DNA of 64,000 nucleotides from Halobellus sp. MBLA0158 (GTDB lineage Archaea; Halobacteriota; Halobacteria; Halobacteriales; Haloferacaceae): contig NZ_JBGNYA010000001.1 of assembly GCF_041477585.1 (NCBI RefSeq), positions 1,178,001-1,242,000 of the forward strand, given 5' to 3'. Position numbers and translations under genes: made by a program. A model generated the notes under the pieces. That model searched no databases and was not told where the DNA came from. It worked only from the letters and a program-made list of their open reading frames with translations. Below are positions 27,889-57,348 of this stretch, one piece after another (within the stretch, counting starts at the first letter, position 1; each line of letters starts with the position of its first letter).

Positions 27889-28015
27889 TATCGACCACGA
27901 GGGATACATCGCCGAGCGAGTAGTTATAGTTCGGGGACAGGTCAGACCGTCGCGGCCGCGGCGCTCGGCGGGCGTTCGACGGAGCCGCGGCTCGGGAGTC
28001 GATGCCGAATGAATG

Positions 28016-28322
28016 GTGGACAGCGGGATTGCCCGGCGTTCCGGCACGGGGAATCCCGGTCGCCTCCTCCACCCCGCGATCCTCCGAGCGACGAACGTCC
28101 GTCGGTCCGCTGCTCGCTTCCGCGCCTGACGGGGTACCGACGACGAACCGCGGGAGACCGACCCTGCGGCCGGCGTCCGCTGACCGCCGTCCCCGAAGGA
28201 CGAGGCTTCGACGTTGGCTTCCGGGGCCCGCGCCGGTCTGACCGGACGCCCCCGGGTTCGGTCCCCGCTGAAGGCCAAAGTCGCGGGTGGAGAGCAGGGC
28301 CTAGCTGCCCGACCTAGTCCAT
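28016..28322 (-). ncRNA. ffs: 7S / signal recognition particle RNA
   Basis: About 305 nt, minus strand. Diagnostic helix 8 of SRP RNA reads CAGGCGCGGAAGCGAGCAG (plus-strand 28111-28128): a GGAA tetraloop with the flanking CAGG and AGCAG that bind SRP54. The two ends pair (TGGAC at 28317-28321 with GTCCA near 28017-28021, helix 1), and the 5' part GGTCGGGCAGCTAGGCCCTGC resembles the archaeal Alu domain. Size fits haloarchaeal 7S RNA. A TATA-like TTATGT lies about 25 bases upstream of the 5' end. Ends are estimated to within a few bases. This explains the otherwise empty 27.9-28.4 kb interval. SRP19 is encoded at 47741 in the same window. Confidence 0.85.
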
Positions 28323-28341
28323 CCCGAGGTACGCCGGGGCC

Positions 28342-50647: not shown

Positions 50648-50703
50648 ACAGTACCTGGGGGCGGCTTGGTACATGAATGTCCGGTCCCGTCGGAACGATT
50701 TTA

Positions 50704-50724
50704 CGTACATCCAACGGATGTACG
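50704..50724. promoter_or_regulatory. Antitoxin operator: 9-bp perfect inverted repeat
   Basis: Arms CGTACATCC (50704-50712) and GGATGTACG (50716-50724) separated by AAC. It lies directly after a TATA-like GATTTTACG and 5 bases before the ATG at 50730, the classical place for autoregulation by a ribbon-helix-helix antitoxin. GTAC submotifs at the ends overlap the TATA. Confidence 0.75.
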
Positions 50725-50729
50725 CACGT

Positions 50730-51005
50730 ATGTCGGAAGCCGACTCGAACGGATCGGACCCCGAGATCGACCGGATCAATCTCCGGATCTCCCGATCGTT
50801 CCTGGAAGTCGTCGACGAGACGTGGCGCGAACGCGGCTTCAACAGCCGGAGCGAGTTCATCCGGTACGCCCTCCGCGACTCGGTGAACCACCCGGAGGGA
50901 GCGGGCCTCTGGAAGGACATCGCGATCAGCGAGGCGCAATTCGGCGAGACGGACGGCGTTCCCAGCGACGAGATCAGGGACGAATACGGCACGAATGGGG
51001 AGTGA
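50730..51005 (+). CDS. Ribbon-helix-helix antitoxin/regulator (CopG/ParD-like)
   Basis: 91 residues from the ATG at 50730 (MSEADSNGSDPEIDRINLRISRSFLEVVDETWRERGFNSRSEFIRYALRDSV). The RHH fold is at about residues 14-52: strand RINLRIS, two helices with NSRSEFIRYALRD. The C-terminal 40 residues would bind a toxin. It overlaps the following RelE/ParE remnant by 11 bases, as TA pairs do. With the toxin broken, the intact antitoxin probably remains as an orphan repressor of its own promoter or of other TA loci. Confidence 0.85.
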   Translation: MSEADSNGSDPEIDRINLRISRSFLEVVDETWRERGFNSRSEFIRYALRDSVNHPEGAGLWKDIAISEAQFGETDGVPSDEIRDEYGTNGE

Positions 51006-51179
51006 CGACGAGTGGGAGTGGGTGTTTTCGCCGCGAGCGGAGTCCCAACTCTCGCAGATCGACGCCGAGTCACAGCAGCGCATCATCGACAAACTGGACG
51101 AGGCGGTCACCTCTCCGTGGCGGTCCTCCGCGTCGAGGGTGTCCGAAAGCGCGACGGGGCATACAAGGGCGACGACTGA
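50995..51179 (+). pseudogene. RelE/ParE-family toxin, deleted and frameshifted
   Basis: The N-terminal part is intact: MGSDDEWEWVFSPRAESQLS to DEAVTSPWR (ending about 51123), matching haloarchaeal RelE-type toxins. The frame then shifts; in the next frame the typical toxin C-terminus VLRVEGVRKRDGAYKGDD is encoded and ends at the TGA at 51177-51179. About 30 central residues are missing. A 7-bp direct repeat GGCGGTC (51102-51108 and 51119-51125) lies at the junction, consistent with a slippage or microhomology deletion. The original frame runs on to 51393 through unrelated sequence. Confidence 0.8.
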
Positions 51180-51211
51180 CCGTTCCGCTCGCTCCGCGCC
51201 ACTGCGAAACG

Positions 51212-51219
51212 TATATAAT
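51212..51219 (+). promoter_or_regulatory. TATA box upstream of dapA leader region
   Basis: GAAACGTATATAATTTTGG: BRE-like GAAAC followed by TATATAAT (51212-51219). The predicted start is about 51240, 190 bases before dapA, exactly where the GTG of a short frame (51242) lies. Confidence 0.6.
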
Positions 51220-51241
51220 TTTGGAGGATCATCTCTCGGGT

Positions 51242-51331
51242 GTGACACACGCCACGCCGTCCGCGACGGACTCGCCCCGTCGGCCAGCGGCGGGTGGCGC
51301 TCTTTTCCGCGGGAAAAAACGCGCGGCGTAA
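51242..51331 (+). CDS. Possible 29-residue leader peptide with tandem Lys codons before dapA
   Basis: A GTG at 51242, 27 bases after the TATA centre, opens a frame of 29 codons ending TAA at 51331. It ends ...ALFRGKKRAA, and the two Lys codons are consecutive AAA, a codon rarely used in this GC-rich genome. They lie on the right arm of a dyad TTTTCC-GCG-GGAAAA (51303-51317). Position before a lysine operon suggests a role in sensing lysyl-tRNA, by analogy to bacterial leader peptides; this is inference. It may also be an untranslated leader. Confidence 0.35.
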   Translation: MTHATPSATDSPRRPAAGGALFRGKKRAA

Positions 51332-51433
51332 ACGCTCTGGGCGGGAGTGGCGACCCCGTCCTTGGCGACCCCCGGACCGCGCGTACCGGATGACGACAGA
51401 GACAAACCCCACCCGACAGTACACACCCCAACG

Positions 51434-52342
51434 ATGACAGATATCGACTTCACCGGCGTGTTCCCCGCGATGACCACGCCGTTCGACGCGGACGAGGAGA
51501 TCGACCACGAACAGCTCGCCGAGGACGCCCAGCGGCTCGAAGCCGCCGGCGTCGCGGGCCTCGTGCCCGCCGGCTCGACCGGCGAGAGCGCGACGCTGAC
51601 CCACGACGAACACATCGAGGTCGTCGAGACGGTCGTCGAGGCCGTCGACGACGTGCCCGTGATCGCGGGCTCGGGCTCGAACTCGACCCACGAGGCGCTG
51701 GACCTCTCCCAGCGCGCGGCCGACGCCGGCGCCGACGGCCTCCTCCTGATCTCGCCGTACTACAACAAGCCCGAACAGGCGGGCCTCCGCCAGCACTTCG
51801 AGGCCATCGCCGACGCGGTCGACCTCCCGCAGATCGTCTACAACGTCCCGAGCCGAACGGGTCGTAACATCGAGCCCGAGACGGTCGGCGAACTGGCCGC
51901 TCACGAGAACATCCGGGCGTACAAGGCCGCCAGCGGCGACATCGCACAGATCTCGGAAGTGATCGAGTACACCCGCGGCGAGGATCTTTCGGTTCTGTCC
52001 GGCGACGACGCGCTGACGCTCCCGATCTGCTCGCTCGGCGGTCGCGGCGTCATCTCCGTCGCGGGCAACGTCGAGCCCGAGCGGATGGTCGAGCTCGTCG
52101 ACGCCGCCGTCGGCGACGACCTCGAACGGGCCCGCGAGCTCCACTACGAGCTGTCGCCGCTGTTCCGGCACCTGTTCGTCGAGACGAACCCGATCCCGGT
52201 CAAGGCCGCGATGGAGATCCGCGGCTACGGCCCCGCCCGGCTCCGCTCGCCGCTTACGGACCTCGAAGACGACAACCACGCCGAGATGGAGCGGATCCTC
52301 GCGGAACTGGAGACGGAACGAGAGGCGACGGAGGCCGTCTGA
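51434..52342 (+). CDS. dapA: 4-hydroxy-tetrahydrodipicolinate synthase
   Basis: 302-residue TIM-barrel aldolase condensing pyruvate with aspartate semialdehyde, the first step of lysine synthesis. Start MTDIDFTGVFPAMTTPFDADEEID at 51434. Pyruvate-site GSTGESATLTHDEH (about 44-57), Tyr in IVYNVPSRTGRNI (about 135-147) and Schiff-base Lys in AYKAASGD (about 161-168) are present. First gene of the six-gene operon; its stop overlaps the dapB start by one base. Upstream leader of about 190 bases. Confidence 0.95.
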   Translation: MTDIDFTGVFPAMTTPFDADEEIDHEQLAEDAQRLEAAGVAGLVPAGSTGESATLTHDEHIEVVETVVEAVDDVPVIAGSGSNSTHEALDLSQRAADAGADGLLLISPYYNKPEQAGLRQHFEAIADAVDLPQIVYNVPSRTGRNIEPETVGELAAHENIRAYKAASGDIAQISEVIEYTRGEDLSVLSGDDALTLPICSLGGRGVISVAGNVEPERMVELVDAAVGDDLERARELHYELSPLFRHLFVETNPIPVKAAMEIRGYGPARLRSPLTDLEDDNHAEMERILAELETEREATEAV

Positions 52343-53169
52343 TGGGCGGGCTCCGCGTCGCGATCACGGGCGCAAGCGGTCGGATGGGCGGCGAACTCCT
52401 CACGGCCGCCGCCGACCACGACGACGTCGACTACGTCCTCGCGGCGACCCGGACGCCCGAGGCGGTCCCGAGCGGCGACGCGCCGGACGCACCCGACGCG
52501 GTCGTCGCCGACAGCGACCTCGGCGACGCGCTCGAATCCCACGATATCGACGTCCTCGTGGACTTCACCGTCCCCGAGGCGAGCGTCGACTACCTCCGGG
52601 CCGCCGCCGACAGCGGCGTCGCCGCCGTCGTCGGGACGACCGGCTACGACGACGACCACCTGGAGACCCTCGATTCGGTCGCCGAGTCGGTCCCGTTCCT
52701 GCGCGCCTCGAACTTCTCCCGCGGCGTCGCGGCGCTCCGCCGGGCGGTCGAGGCCGCCGCCGGGGCGCTCTCGGGCTACGACGTCGAAGTGACCGAGACC
52801 CACCACAACGGCAAGCGCGACGCCCCCTCGGGGACGGCGCTCACGATCCTCGACGACATCGACGAGGCCCGCGGCGAAGCGGCAGAGCGCGTCCACGGGC
52901 GCGAGGGCGACCAGCCTCGCGAAGGGACTGAGATCGGCGTCCACGCGCGCCGCGCGGGCGACGTCACGGGCGAGCACGAGGTCCTCTTCGCCGGCAACGA
53001 GGAGGTCGTCGAACTGACTCACCGCGCCGGCTCCCGCGGCATCTTCGCGGTCGGCGCGCTCGACGCCGCGGCCTGGCTCGCCGGCCGCTCTCCCGGACGG
53101 TACGATTTCGGTGAAGTCTTGGACGCCGGCGGCGAGAACGAAGACGACGGAGCTTCCCGATCCCAATGA
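52342..53169 (+). CDS. dapB: 4-hydroxy-tetrahydrodipicolinate reductase
   Basis: 275 residues. The NAD(P)H-binding GASGRMGG is at about residues 9-16; the catalytic core THHNGKRDAPSGTAL (about 152-166) carries the conserved His pair and Lys, and ARRAGDVTGEHEVLF follows. It reduces the DapA product to tetrahydrodipicolinate. Starts inside the dapA stop (TGATG) and ends 4 bases into dapD (ATGA). A short acidic C-terminal tail (ENEDDGASRSQ) is present. Confidence 0.95.
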   Translation: MGGLRVAITGASGRMGGELLTAAADHDDVDYVLAATRTPEAVPSGDAPDAPDAVVADSDLGDALESHDIDVLVDFTVPEASVDYLRAAADSGVAAVVGTTGYDDDHLETLDSVAESVPFLRASNFSRGVAALRRAVEAAAGALSGYDVEVTETHHNGKRDAPSGTALTILDDIDEARGEAAERVHGREGDQPREGTEIGVHARRAGDVTGEHEVLFAGNEEVVELTHRAGSRGIFAVGALDAAAWLAGRSPGRYDFGEVLDAGGENEDDGASRSQ

Positions 53170-54011
53170 GCCTCGAATCCGACATCGACGACCTGTGGCA
53201 GCGCTACCAGGACGACGACCTCTCCGCGGAGACCGCCGGCTCCGGCGTGGAGTCGACGCTCAATGCCTTCCTCGAAGCCCTGGAGACCGGCGAGGTGCGG
53301 GCGGCCGAGCAAGTGGGCGACAGCGGCCCGGACGGCTGGGTCGTCAACGAGTGGGTAAAGCGCGGCATCCTGCTCAACTTCGGCCTGCGCGAGACGCTCC
53401 CCCGCGAGTACGGCGACGTCACCTACTACGACGTCCTGCCGCTCCGTTCGACGACCGACCTCGGCGGGCGCGGCACCCGCAACACCCCCGACGGGACCGC
53501 GATCCGCCGCGGCGCCTACCTCGGCTCGGACTGCATTATGATGTCGCCGTCGTTCGTCAACATCGGCGCCCACGTCGGCGACGGGACCCTCGTCGACTCG
53601 TGTGACACCGTCGGCTCCTGCGCCCAGTTAGGAGAGAACGTCAAGCTCGGCGCCAACACGCTGATCGGCGGCGTCCTCGAACCCGTCGAGGACGCGCCGG
53701 TGATCATCGAAGACGGCGTCTCGCTCGGCGCGGGCTGTCGAGTCACCTCCGGCTTCCACGTCGGCGAGAACACGGTCGTCGGCGAGAACACCCTTCTGAG
53801 CCCCCGGATTCCAGTCTACGACCTCGTCGAGGAGGAGGTCATCTACGGGCACCTGCCGTCCGAGCGCCGCGCGTTCACGCGGTACGTCGAGTCCTCGCTC
53901 GGCGACCACGACCTCTTCGAGTCCGGCGCGTACAAGCCCGCGGTCGTCGCGCTCGACATCGAAGACGACACCCTCGACAAGACCCGTCGCGAGGAGGCGC
54001 TCCGGGAATGA
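53166..54011 (+). CDS. dapD: Tetrahydrodipicolinate N-succinyltransferase (DapD)
   Basis: 281 residues: helical N-terminal domain then a left-handed beta-helix of hexapeptide repeats (from VNIGAHVGDGTLVDSCDTVGSCAQLGENVKLGANTLIGG). RGAYLGSDCIMMSPSFVNIGA and VIIEDGVSLGAGCRV are DapD landmarks. It commits the operon to the succinylase branch. Overlaps dapB and lysA by 4 bases each. The pathway would need an aminotransferase (DapC) that is not encoded here. Confidence 0.94.
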   Translation: MSLESDIDDLWQRYQDDDLSAETAGSGVESTLNAFLEALETGEVRAAEQVGDSGPDGWVVNEWVKRGILLNFGLRETLPREYGDVTYYDVLPLRSTTDLGGRGTRNTPDGTAIRRGAYLGSDCIMMSPSFVNIGAHVGDGTLVDSCDTVGSCAQLGENVKLGANTLIGGVLEPVEDAPVIIEDGVSLGAGCRVTSGFHVGENTVVGENTLLSPRIPVYDLVEEEVIYGHLPSERRAFTRYVESSLGDHDLFESGAYKPAVVALDIEDDTLDKTRREEALRE

Positions 54012-55252
54012 GCCACTCCGGCGGCGGAGGGCCGGCGGTCAGGCGCCTCGCCGACTGGGACGGCGAGGCCCTCCTCGCGCTCGCCGGGGAGCACGAGACG
54101 CCGCTCTACGTCGTCGACCTCGATCGGGTGGAGGAGAACTGCGCACGACTCCAGTCAGCGTTCCCCGACGCCGACGTCCGCTACGCGATGAAAGCCCACT
54201 CGGGCGCCCAGGTCCTGCGGACCGTCCGCGAGGCGGGGCTGGACGCCGAGTGCGCCTCCGCGGGCGAGGTGATGCGCGCGCTCGACGCCGGCTTCCCGGG
54301 CGACCGGGTCCAGTACACGGCGGTCAATCCACCCGCCCGCGACCTCGACTACGTCGTCGAGCGCTGGCGCGAGCACCCCGGCCTCACGGTCACGGTCGGC
54401 GCGGCCGACACGGTCGACCGCCTGCGGGACCGCGGCTTCGACGGTCGGCTCTGCATCCGCGCGAATCCGGGCGTCGGCGCCGGCCACCACGAGAAGGTCC
54501 AGACGGGCGCGAACGCGAAGTTCGGCATCCCGATCGAGCGCGTGCCCGACCTCGCCGAGCAGTGGGCCGCCGAGTTCGACCTCGTCGGCGTCCACGCCCA
54601 CGCGGGCAGCGGCATCTCGGGCGAGGACCTCTCGGCCCACCGCGAACTGGTCAGTCGGATGGGCGACCTCGCGCGCGAGGTCGAATCCGCGGTCGTCTCC
54701 CTGGAGTTCGTCGACGTCGGCGGCGGCTTCGGCGTCCCCTACGAGGAGGACGAGCCGCCGCTGGACCTCGACGCCGTCGCCGAGGCGACGCGCGAGGCGC
54801 TGGGCGAGGTCGACGCGACGCTCGCGGTCGAGCCCGGACGGTACGTCGTCGCCGACGCCGGCGTGCTCCTCACGACCGTGAACACGGTCAAGCAGGCCCG
54901 CGACGCCACCGTCGTGGGCGTCGACGCCGGGATGACGACGCTCCTCCGGCCGGCGATGTACGACGCCTACCACGCGATCCGGAATCTCTCGGCGCCCGAC
55001 GCCGAATCGACCCCCGTCACGGTAGCGGGACCTATATGTGAGTCGGCGGACGTACTGTGTGAGCACAGGTCGCTCTCGCGGCCCCGACGCGGGCACGTCC
55101 TCGCCATTGGGAACGCGGGCGCGTACGGATACGAGATGTCGAGCACCTACAACTCCCGACCGCGGCCGGCCGAAGTCGTCCTCTCGGAGGCGACGGTCCG
55201 TCCGTCCCGTCGGCGCGAGACCCTGACTGACCTCACCACCCTAGACCAATGA
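54008..55252 (+). CDS. lysA: Diaminopimelate decarboxylase
   Basis: 414-residue PLP enzyme, fold III. PLP Lys in VRYAMKAHSG (about residue 61), the glycine-rich phosphate loop VDVGGGFGVPYEEDEPP (about 237-253), and the C-terminal GPICESADVLC, GNAGAYGYEMSSTYNSRPRPAEV signatures are all present. It converts meso-DAP to lysine. It lies before dapF although it acts after it. Overlaps dapD and dapF by 4 bases. Confidence 0.95.
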   Translation: MSHSGGGGPAVRRLADWDGEALLALAGEHETPLYVVDLDRVEENCARLQSAFPDADVRYAMKAHSGAQVLRTVREAGLDAECASAGEVMRALDAGFPGDRVQYTAVNPPARDLDYVVERWREHPGLTVTVGAADTVDRLRDRGFDGRLCIRANPGVGAGHHEKVQTGANAKFGIPIERVPDLAEQWAAEFDLVGVHAHAGSGISGEDLSAHRELVSRMGDLAREVESAVVSLEFVDVGGGFGVPYEEDEPPLDLDAVAEATREALGEVDATLAVEPGRYVVADAGVLLTTVNTVKQARDATVVGVDAGMTTLLRPAMYDAYHAIRNLSAPDAESTPVTVAGPICESADVLCEHRSLSRPRRGHVLAIGNAGAYGYEMSSTYNSRPRPAEVVLSEATVRPSRRRETLTDLTTLDQ

Positions 55253-56193
55253 GCGTACAGCACGACAGAGTACCAGTCGAGAAGTACCACGGCACCGGCA
55301 ACGACTTCATCGTCGTCGACGCCGTCGAATCGATCCCCGACCGCCCCGCGTTCGCGACCGCCCACTGCGACCGCGAGACCGGCGTCGAACACGACGCCTC
55401 GCCGCGCACCGGCGCCGACGGCGTCCTCTTCTTGCATCTGGAAGAGCGCTACTCGCCGCCGCGCGTCGTGATGACGCTCGTCCAGCCGGACGGGTCGGTC
55501 GCCGCGATGTGCGGCAACGGCGCGCGCGTCGCCGCCGCCTGGGCCGCAGAGCGTACGGGATCGGACGAACTGATGATCGACACGCCCGCGGGCACGCGCC
55601 ACGCGGTCGTCGAGGGCGACGAGGTGACGATCGAGATGGGCGAACCGAGCTTCCGTCCGCGCGACGTCCCGCTGGCCCGCGAGGCCGAACGCAGTGAGGC
55701 CTCGGAAGAGCGAGCGGGAGCGGAGCGACACGCGAGCCGCGAAGCCGAACTCATCGAAGAGGACGTCGAGGGACTCACCGTCACCGCAGTCAACACGGGC
55801 GTCCCTCACGCCGTCGCGGTCGTCGACGACGTCGACGCGGTCGACCTCGAATCGGTCGCGCCCGCGGTCCGCTACGCCGACGTCTTCCCCGAGGGCGCGA
55901 ACGTCACGCTCGCCTCGCGGGACGGCGAGGACCGCGAGGGCAACCCCCAGTTCCGCCAGCGCACCTACGAGCGCGGCGTCGAGGGCGAGACCCGCTCGTG
56001 CGGGACCGGTGCGGTCGCGGTCGCCGCGGTCGCCAAGCGGCTCGGCCTCGTCGACGGCTCCGACTCGATGACGGTCAGCCCGCCCGGGGGCGACCTCCGG
56101 ATCACGGTGCCCGACGACGGGCCCGCGACGCTCGCCGGCCCCGCCGAACGCGAGTTCGCGGGCGAACTCGACGTCGTGGTGCGATCGACGTAG
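55249..56193 (+). CDS. dapF: Diaminopimelate epimerase with low-complexity insertion
   Basis: 314 residues. VEKYHGTGNDFIVVDA at the N-terminus; the two catalytic Cys in MCGNGARVAAAW (about residue 86) and TRSCGTGAVAVAAV (about 249). Between the halves (about residues 145-165) is an extra AERSEASEERAGAERHASREAE segment, encoded by a GAGCGAGCGGGAGCGGAGCG-type DNA tract, not present in the core family. The insertion keeps the frame and sits in a loop before the second domain. Otherwise complete. Overlaps lysA by 4 bases. Confidence 0.94.
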   Translation: MSVQHDRVPVEKYHGTGNDFIVVDAVESIPDRPAFATAHCDRETGVEHDASPRTGADGVLFLHLEERYSPPRVVMTLVQPDGSVAAMCGNGARVAAAWAAERTGSDELMIDTPAGTRHAVVEGDEVTIEMGEPSFRPRDVPLAREAERSEASEERAGAERHASREAELIEEDVEGLTVTAVNTGVPHAVAVVDDVDAVDLESVAPAVRYADVFPEGANVTLASRDGEDREGNPQFRQRTYERGVEGETRSCGTGAVAVAAVAKRLGLVDGSDSMTVSPPGGDLRITVPDDGPATLAGPAEREFAGELDVVVRST

Positions 56194-57348
56194 ATGGCGG
56201 GCGCGGATTCCGACGCTGACCCCGACGCGGATTCGCATCAGGGATTCGACCCCGTCTCCTTCCTCGAATCCGCGGTCCCGATCACCTCGAACGAGAACGT
56301 CGATGAGATGCGGGAGTTCCTCGTGGAGACGGTCGAGTCTCGGGGCATCGACGTCCGCGTCGACGACGCGGGCAACATCATCGCGACGAAAGCCGGCGCG
56401 GACGCCGGCGACGACCCCGAGACGCACCTCGTCTTCAACACCCACATCGACACCGTCTCGCCGCACGTCGCCTTCGAGCGCGAGCAGGTCGACGGGGAAC
56501 TCGTCCGGATCCACGGCCGCGGCGCCTGCGACGCCAAGGGCCCGCTCGCGGCGATCCTCTCGGCGTTCTTCGCCGTCGAGCCCCGAGCGGACGCCCGCGT
56601 GACGCTCGCGGTGACGCCCGACGAGGAGGCGCTGTCGACCGGCGCGGCGGCGCTCGACCTCGACGGCGATTGCTACGTCGTGGGCGAGCCTACCGATCTG
56701 GACGTCTGCACCGCCGCGAAGGGCCGCTTCCAGGGCACGCTCACGCTCTCGGGCGTCGCGGCCCACGCCGCCGAGCCCGACTCCGGCGCGAACGCCATCG
56801 CGGGCCTGGAGGGCGCGCTCGGAGCGATCCGGACCTTCGACGAGGGGCGGGCGGCTCACCCGCAGCTCGGCCGCGCGACGCTGACGCCGACGACCGTGGT
56901 CGGCGGCGACGCGACCAATCAGGTGCCCGCCAACTGCGAGCTCGTCCTCGACCGGAGGAGCGTCCCGCCGGAGACGGCAGAAGGTTTCCGGTCCGAGCTC
57001 GAAACCGCGGTCCGCGAGGCCGTCCCCGACGACGTCGGCGTCGACTTCGCGCTCACGGACCGGCCGACGCCGTTCCTGGAGGCGTTCGCGACCGACGCGG
57101 ACCACGACCTCGTGCGGACGCTCGCCGCCGCGAGCGAGCGCGCGGGCGGCTCCGGCGCGGTGCGGCCCTTCACCGCCGCGACGGAGGCGTCGTACTTCTC
57201 GCCCGCGCCGGTGGTCGTCTTCGGTCCGGGGGTCCTCGCCGACGACCGGGGTGCCGTGGCCCACGCCGAGCGCGAGTACGTCGACGTCGCGGACGTGCGC
57301 CGCGCCGCCGAGGCGCTGACCGACGCCGCGCGACGGCTGGTCGGCTGA
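56194..57348 (+). CDS. dapE: Succinyl-diaminopimelate desuccinylase, M20 family
   Basis: 384 residues starting directly after the dapF stop (MAGADSDADPDADSHQG). M20 metal ligands: His in FNTHIDTVSPH (about residue 88), Asp in RGACDAKGPLAAI (about 113), Glu pair in TPDEEALSTG (about 151), Glu in VVGEPTDLDVCTAAKGR (about 171) and a final His. The lid/dimerisation domain is present. It fits the succinylase pathway with dapD; the M20 family also contains similar amidohydrolases, but the operon decides the assignment. Confidence 0.9.
   Translation: MAGADSDADPDADSHQGFDPVSFLESAVPITSNENVDEMREFLVETVESRGIDVRVDDAGNIIATKAGADAGDDPETHLVFNTHIDTVSPHVAFEREQVDGELVRIHGRGACDAKGPLAAILSAFFAVEPRADARVTLAVTPDEEALSTGAAALDLDGDCYVVGEPTDLDVCTAAKGRFQGTLTLSGVAAHAAEPDSGANAIAGLEGALGAIRTFDEGRAAHPQLGRATLTPTTVVGGDATNQVPANCELVLDRRSVPPETAEGFRSELETAVREAVPDDVGVDFALTDRPTPFLEAFATDADHDLVRTLAAASERAGGSGAVRPFTAATEASYFSPAPVVVFGPGVLADDRGAVAHAEREYVDVADVRRAAEALTDAARRLVG

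Follow-up and report, generated by a model that had tools for sequence, protein, structure and literature searches.

The lysine operon of this haloarchaeon raises the question of what lies between its promoter and its first gene, and whether that interval could control the genes behind it. In the window, by which we mean the whole 64,000-nt stretch of DNA that was analysed, taken from a 3.29-Mb haloarchaeal genome whose named close relatives are Halobellus species, the genes dapA-dapB-dapD-lysA-dapF-dapE form a compact operon at 51434-57348. The first gene, dapA (dihydrodipicolinate synthase; 51434-52342; PF00701, E 7.9e-91), is followed by dapB, dapD, lysA, dapF and dapE at 52342-57348, each with a Pfam match; the operon and all parts of the leader described below lie on the forward strand. 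The start of dapA has no TATA element of its own, and its ATG at 51434 stands 192 nt 3' of a GTG that opens a short frame. We propose that this frame is a leader peptide that gauges charged lysyl-tRNA and controls the lysine operon, its output probably being factor-dependent termination, and we put the probability of this reading at about two in three. Directly upstream of the leader promoter, at 50673-51177, lie a CopG/RHH antitoxin-like gene and then an apparent shortened or decayed ParE-like toxin frame.

An earlier note on this DNA had suggested a leaderless leader peptide before dapA, and its BRE/TATA, GTG, 29-codon frame, tandem AAA codons and dyad were all found, on re-reading of the window, where it had placed them. 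The promoter element is GAAACGTATATAAT (51206-51219), and the frame (51242-51331) runs from the GTG (51242-51244) to a TAA stop codon (51329-51331) and reads VTHATPSATDSPRRPAAGGALFRGKKRAA, the peptide ending in ...GKKRAA. Homologous frames occur at other haloarchaeal dapA loci, and 79 distinct leaders could be aligned on their start codons. A or T was kept at positions -28 and -27 in 100% and at -26 in 97% of them, and the length from TATA to start codon did not vary, so that at the sequence level these leaders show the leaderless arrangement, in which the transcript begins with the start codon, about 26-27 nt 3' of the TATA centre. Because the TATA position is fixed relative to the start codon, transcription is predicted to begin on the start codon itself, which we consider strongly indicated. 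The start codon is ATG in 61 of the 79 and GTG in 18, the leaders of Halobellus, Haloferax and Halogeometricum being among those with GTG. GTG may be a weak start on leaderless mRNA. In Haloferax, native transcripts that begin directly with GUG are known (PMC4983044).

The comparison that the earlier note had called for, of dapA leaders in related genomes for a conserved short frame with Lys codons, came out strongly in its favour. The DNA upstream of dapA was read at 80 loci from named haloarchaeal genomes and at 17 further same-genus loci, and the search rule called a short frame with clustered Lys codons close to its 3' end at 88 of these 97 loci, in about 30 genera, giving the 79 distinct peptides. 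The frames are 25-33 codons long, and all but a few end in two to four clustered Lys codons; a frame at the predicted 5' end of the transcript that carries clustered codons for the amino acid of its operon is thus conserved, together with those codons, among the relatives. The loci missed by the search rule were mostly Haloquadratum-like, with a degenerate or reduced frame; three others had one to three Lys at the end of the frame. For a single frame, and at the low Lys frequency of the window's own dap operon, two Lys in the last six codons have a probability of about 0.001, and as a control, two Lys in the last ten residues occurred in only 9 of 243 other short frames of the same upstream regions, two of these nine being the leaders of loci that the search rule had missed. 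The leaderless start, the clustered Lys codons and the position before dapA are kept across the class Halobacteria, which supports the leader-peptide reading on sequence grounds and confirms the leader observation as real and more than chance.

The two tandem AAA codons of the window (51314-51319) are the putative control codons. Lys is uncommon in the products of this operon, where it accounts for 0.86% of the codons (2 AAA and 15 AAG among 1970), and the usual preference is for AAG. In the leaders this preference is reversed, with an AAA:AAG ratio of 162:16, whereas the dapA genes that follow them have 10:243 (odds ratio 246, this figure and its p-value being nominal as the sequences are related). 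In theory, control codons that have to respond to tRNA charging should favour the rarer synonymous codon, and the AAA bias fits such a role; AAA may also be favoured through pairing with UUU. The wording of the cluster varies (KKR, KRKR, SKSKPKPKR(V), KRKRK, GKKRA, FPKRKRV and KRKRKCA) and its place is constant, which would fit a role of the codons themselves rather than of the peptide; the Haloferax leaders at L065 and L081, for instance, end in FFSKKRVF/FFSKKRAY. Frameshifting by -1 on AAAAAAC was rejected, as many leaders carry AAACGYAAACGC instead. The dyad TTTTCC-GCG-GGAAAA (UUUUCC/GGAAAA in RNA; 51303-51317), which the earlier note had seen overlapping the Lys codons, is present in the sequence and in the window fold, but it is only partly conserved, a TTT within 15 nt before the Lys codons being found in 55 of the 79 leaders. 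It is not the conserved regulatory element; two hairpins and a candidate third helix, here called hairpin A, hairpin B and helix C, are.

Hairpin B (51330-51371), which the earlier note had not described, follows the Lys codons directly. Its stem is formed by 51333-51336 with 51364-51367 and by 51340-51345 with 51355-51360, and its loop (51346-51354) contains GUGGCG. Over 71 distinct sequences, 93.9% of the cells of its 13 pairs were paired and eight pairs showed double changes, with a covariation score of 0.279 compared with 0.140 for shuffled and 0.073-0.156 for slid alignments. Two G-U pairs are nearly invariant (71/71 and 70/71), and the loop GU[GA]GC[AG] is conserved more than pairing requires. 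As G-U pairs would be mismatches in a DNA palindrome, a DNA operator at this site is unlikely. A covariance model found a single strong copy in the own genome (48.4 bits, the next best match scoring 19.8) and matches in 92 of 116 Halobacteria genomes, the remaining 24 having none at the threshold. All 30 class loci checked, which were the best matches, and the match of the window itself lie just before dapA, as do three weak matches; second matches occurred in only two genomes and were weaker and inside coding sequence. Among 120 genomes drawn from the phylum, none outside the order gave a match to hairpin B. Control of other genes by hairpin B was likewise rejected, there being no other credible match in the own genome, only coding second matches in the class and none outside the order. 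Some of the 24 genomes without a match may lack the lysine pathway. Its absence has been stated for Halobacterium salinarum (PMC8305020).

Hairpin A (51250-51299) lies inside the leader frame, 5' of the Lys codons, and was found in the window fold. It has a mean z of -1.54 over 79 leaders, and its strands co-vary between genera (t=-4.4, 31 genera), a co-variation that persists where the encoded residues differ, as at the locus L163. Between hairpins A and B, the Lys codons occupy a slot with a median length of 37 nt, roughly one ribosome footprint. Hairpin B lies 15.4 nt (SD 1.1) 3' of the last Lys codon, a distance of about the reach of the front edge of a ribosome, and in 68 of the 79 leaders that codon lies 9 or 12 nt before the stop codon. 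The stop codon itself stands 4.0 nt from hairpin B with an SD of 5.2, often 3-7 nt before it and sometimes inside it. Because the first distance is tight and the second is loose, it is the Lys codon, and not the stop codon, that is held at a set spacing from hairpin B.

Pairing between segments was assessed by duplex energy, the values within a locus being set against those obtained with segments of other genera, and hairpins A and B stood out in this comparison. As with the codon counts, the sequences used are related, and genus-level testing was applied to pairing only. Seen also in the window fold, the candidate helix C would pair the 8-10 nt that follow the last Lys codon with bases 57-61 nt further on, past hairpin B; in the window, its 5' strand (51319-51327) lies directly 3' of the Lys codons and its 3' strand at 51377-51384. 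Its register is constant, and its signal was t=-5.5 over sequences and t=-3.1 over 31 genera, with 71% of genera in the right direction and a weak signal in Haloarcula; an unplanned segment pair, the 5' strand of helix C with the 3' strand of hairpin B, gave a similar value (t=-2.9). We regard helix C as a moderately supported candidate pairing. By this model, stalling on the Lys codons would place the ribosome over the 5' strand of helix C and leave hairpin B intact. In the same genus-level tests, the segments of hairpins A and B showed no co-variation with each other, and a classical antiterminator made of the two, that is, an antiterminator and a terminator that exclude each other, was rejected. 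Nor did the dapA start co-vary with any leader segment of A or B, and sequestration of the dapA start by such a segment was rejected as well.

The spacer between the leader structures and dapA (51385-51433) is poor in T and rich in C, with 11% T and 39% C over 79 loci compared with 20% T and 29% C in the region upstream of the promoter. It contains no U-tract in any of the 79 loci, the longest T run being 3. Because T runs never exceed this length, an archaeal U-tract terminator is absent, and an intrinsic terminator of this kind after hairpin B was rejected. In Natrinema and relatives, repeats such as CCGATCGGAACCGATACACCCTACCGAT occur in this spacer shortly before dapA (L018, L019, L022, L024, L035, L036 and L043), and a similar TACACCCTAC precedes dapA in several Halobellus loci (L002, L006 and L007); these repeats are possibly a second regulatory site.

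From these features we infer a sequence of events in which a ribosome would translate the leader from the start codon at the 5' end of the transcript and meet the clustered AAA codons in the roughly 37-nt slot that separates hairpin A from hairpin B. If Lys-tRNA were scarce, the ribosome would stall at these codons with its front edge against the base of hairpin B and mask the bases just 3' of the Lys codons, so that helix C would be blocked and the operon would be on. If lysine were plentiful, the ribosome would finish and leave, helix C would close over hairpin B and the operon would be off. The likely output is a premature, factor-dependent loss of transcription, mediated by aCPSF1/FttA, in the C-rich, U-poor spacer when it carries no ribosome. 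The sensor part of this model is drawn from conservation, codon choice and spacing, and the direction of the switch, with scarce lysine turning the operon on, from physiological logic. In its complete form, the model would be an archaeal ribosome-mediated attenuation, in which a leaderless Lys leader and a ribosome stalled between two hairpins block a third helix and avert aCPSF1/FttA termination, replacing the bacterial hairpin plus U-tract; we offer this form tentatively, as a possibility that is more doubtful than not.

The main rival to a termination output keeps the same sensor and lets it act on the translation of dapA, through ribosome loading or re-initiation about 100 nt downstream (termination-reinitiation or a uORF effect), its frequency being set by the ribosome on the short frame or by the release of that ribosome just 5' of hairpin B, with transcription unaffected. 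A spacer without a U-tract terminator would suit it, as would a stop codon that often lies 3-7 nt before hairpin B and a dapA that lacks its own TATA and stands behind an open A/C-rich spacer. However, the dapA start region co-varies with no leader segment, the distance from the stop codon to dapA ranges from 84 to 211 nt and that from the stop codon to the hairpin is unconstrained, and we therefore judge control at the level of dapA translation to be unlikely, though a serious contender. It is much less probable that hairpin B is itself the regulator, bound through its GU[GA]GC[AG] loop by a protein or a small molecule, with the short frame being incidental. This would account for a loop conserved past the needs of pairing and for the one copy per genome that always precedes dapA, but it leaves the leaderless start, the Lys cluster, the AAA preference and the fixed distance from Lys codon to hairpin unexplained, and no Rfam family matches the hairpin; binding at hairpin B may add to the leader mechanism but would not replace it. 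We consider a functional small basic protein very improbable as the product of the frame, despite the conservation of the frame and its length, because residues outside the Lys/Arg end vary freely between genera, the N-terminal MRHVAH...VSG of one group coincides with the strands of hairpin A, which is built from other codons elsewhere, and a choice of AAA over AAG is not selectable at the protein level. A chance frame without function, which the abundance of open frames in GC-rich DNA might suggest, is refuted by the class-wide conservation and the covariation and has next to no probability.

The proposed gauge of lysyl-tRNA can be compared with several known systems. Like the bacterial ribosome-mediated attenuators of the Yanofsky type (trp, his, leu, thr and ilv), it has a short frame at the 5' end, tandem cognate codons, flanking hairpins and a preference for the rarer synonymous codon. 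In contrast to them, it is archaeal and leaderless, its Lys codons are placed between the hairpins instead of in segment 1, no antiterminator of A and B co-varies, no U-tract terminator is present, and the candidate regulated helix encloses hairpin B and begins at the Lys codons. Because both the antiterminator and the U-tract are missing, the known bacterial way of ending transcription is absent; the leader resembles bacterial attenuators in its logic and departs from them in two structural respects, mutually exclusive hairpins and the U-tract. The Rho-dependent bacterial tnaC system is alike in that a stalled ribosome could hide RNA from a termination factor and in its C-rich, G-poor downstream RNA, whereas here the signal would be starvation for the cognate codon rather than a peptide-plus-ligand arrest, and a strong conserved hairpin follows directly. 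To our knowledge, archaea have no Rho. The lysine riboswitch (L box, RF00168) and T-box leaders share cis-acting RNA control of amino-acid genes, but here the signal is apparently read by a ribosome on a short frame. A riboswitch, a T-box or another Rfam RNA at the leader was rejected, as no Rfam family matched within 51150-51460 up to E=5; elsewhere in the window, the only match was the archaeal signal recognition particle RNA (28014-28324, minus strand, 180.8 bits).

Short frames of 15-31 codons have been described in long 5'-UTRs of the haloarchaeon Haloferax volcanii, some of them before aminoacyl-tRNA synthetase genes, but those peptides have a low isoelectric point and no mechanism was proposed for them (Babski et al. 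2016, PMC4983044). Frames of 23 and 26 codons precede the tryptophan--tRNA ligase gene and pheS (Table 2, PMC4983044). The gene dapA is absent from the 16 uORFs of that survey of long 5'-UTRs, which counts against the leader reading (PMC4983044). No report of an archaeal leader-peptide attenuator was found in the open-access literature, to which the search was confined.

In the own genome, no comparable leader with cognate codons was seen before trpC, trpD, hisG or the homoserine dehydrogenase gene, and on this absence a general haloarchaeal leader system was rejected. In most of the haloarchaea examined (L148; L146-L159), trpC has at its start, just 5' of the gene, a shared operator-like repeat, about TTATGTACANNNNNGTNCNTNNNTGTAC, and no leader frame, which suggests a DNA-binding repressor. 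The gene leuA (2-isopropylmalate synthase; G000:C1:2089657-2089946, minus strand, in the own genome) lacks an ATG close to its reading frame; the frame that a leaderless ATG does open, MSHDDMEAQSDTPAGRVLPGHISPNN with its stop codon, overlaps leuA, and a +1 shift from it enters leuA (..RLVEFFQGTLAQITESE..). This layout recurs in other haloarchaeal genera (L168, L173-L186 and L196-L219) and points to either programmed +1 frameshifting near NCCCCGGC or a uORF that overlaps the gene. The 5' end of leuA2 is the subject of a supplementary figure in an annotation paper of 2021 (PMC8305020).

Control of amino-acid genes by leader peptides is a textbook mechanism of bacteria and depends on translation keeping up with transcription. 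For archaea, nearly nothing is known about the coupling of the two processes, according to a 2021 paper (PMC8576121). A class-wide case that is defined by sequence and occurs in genetically tractable haloarchaea would make this question directly testable. The design proposed here is non-bacterial, with a leaderless start, control codons between two hairpins and no U-tract; if it operates as we suggest, it would account for the control of the dap operon and would supply a lysine-responsive genetic switch for these organisms.
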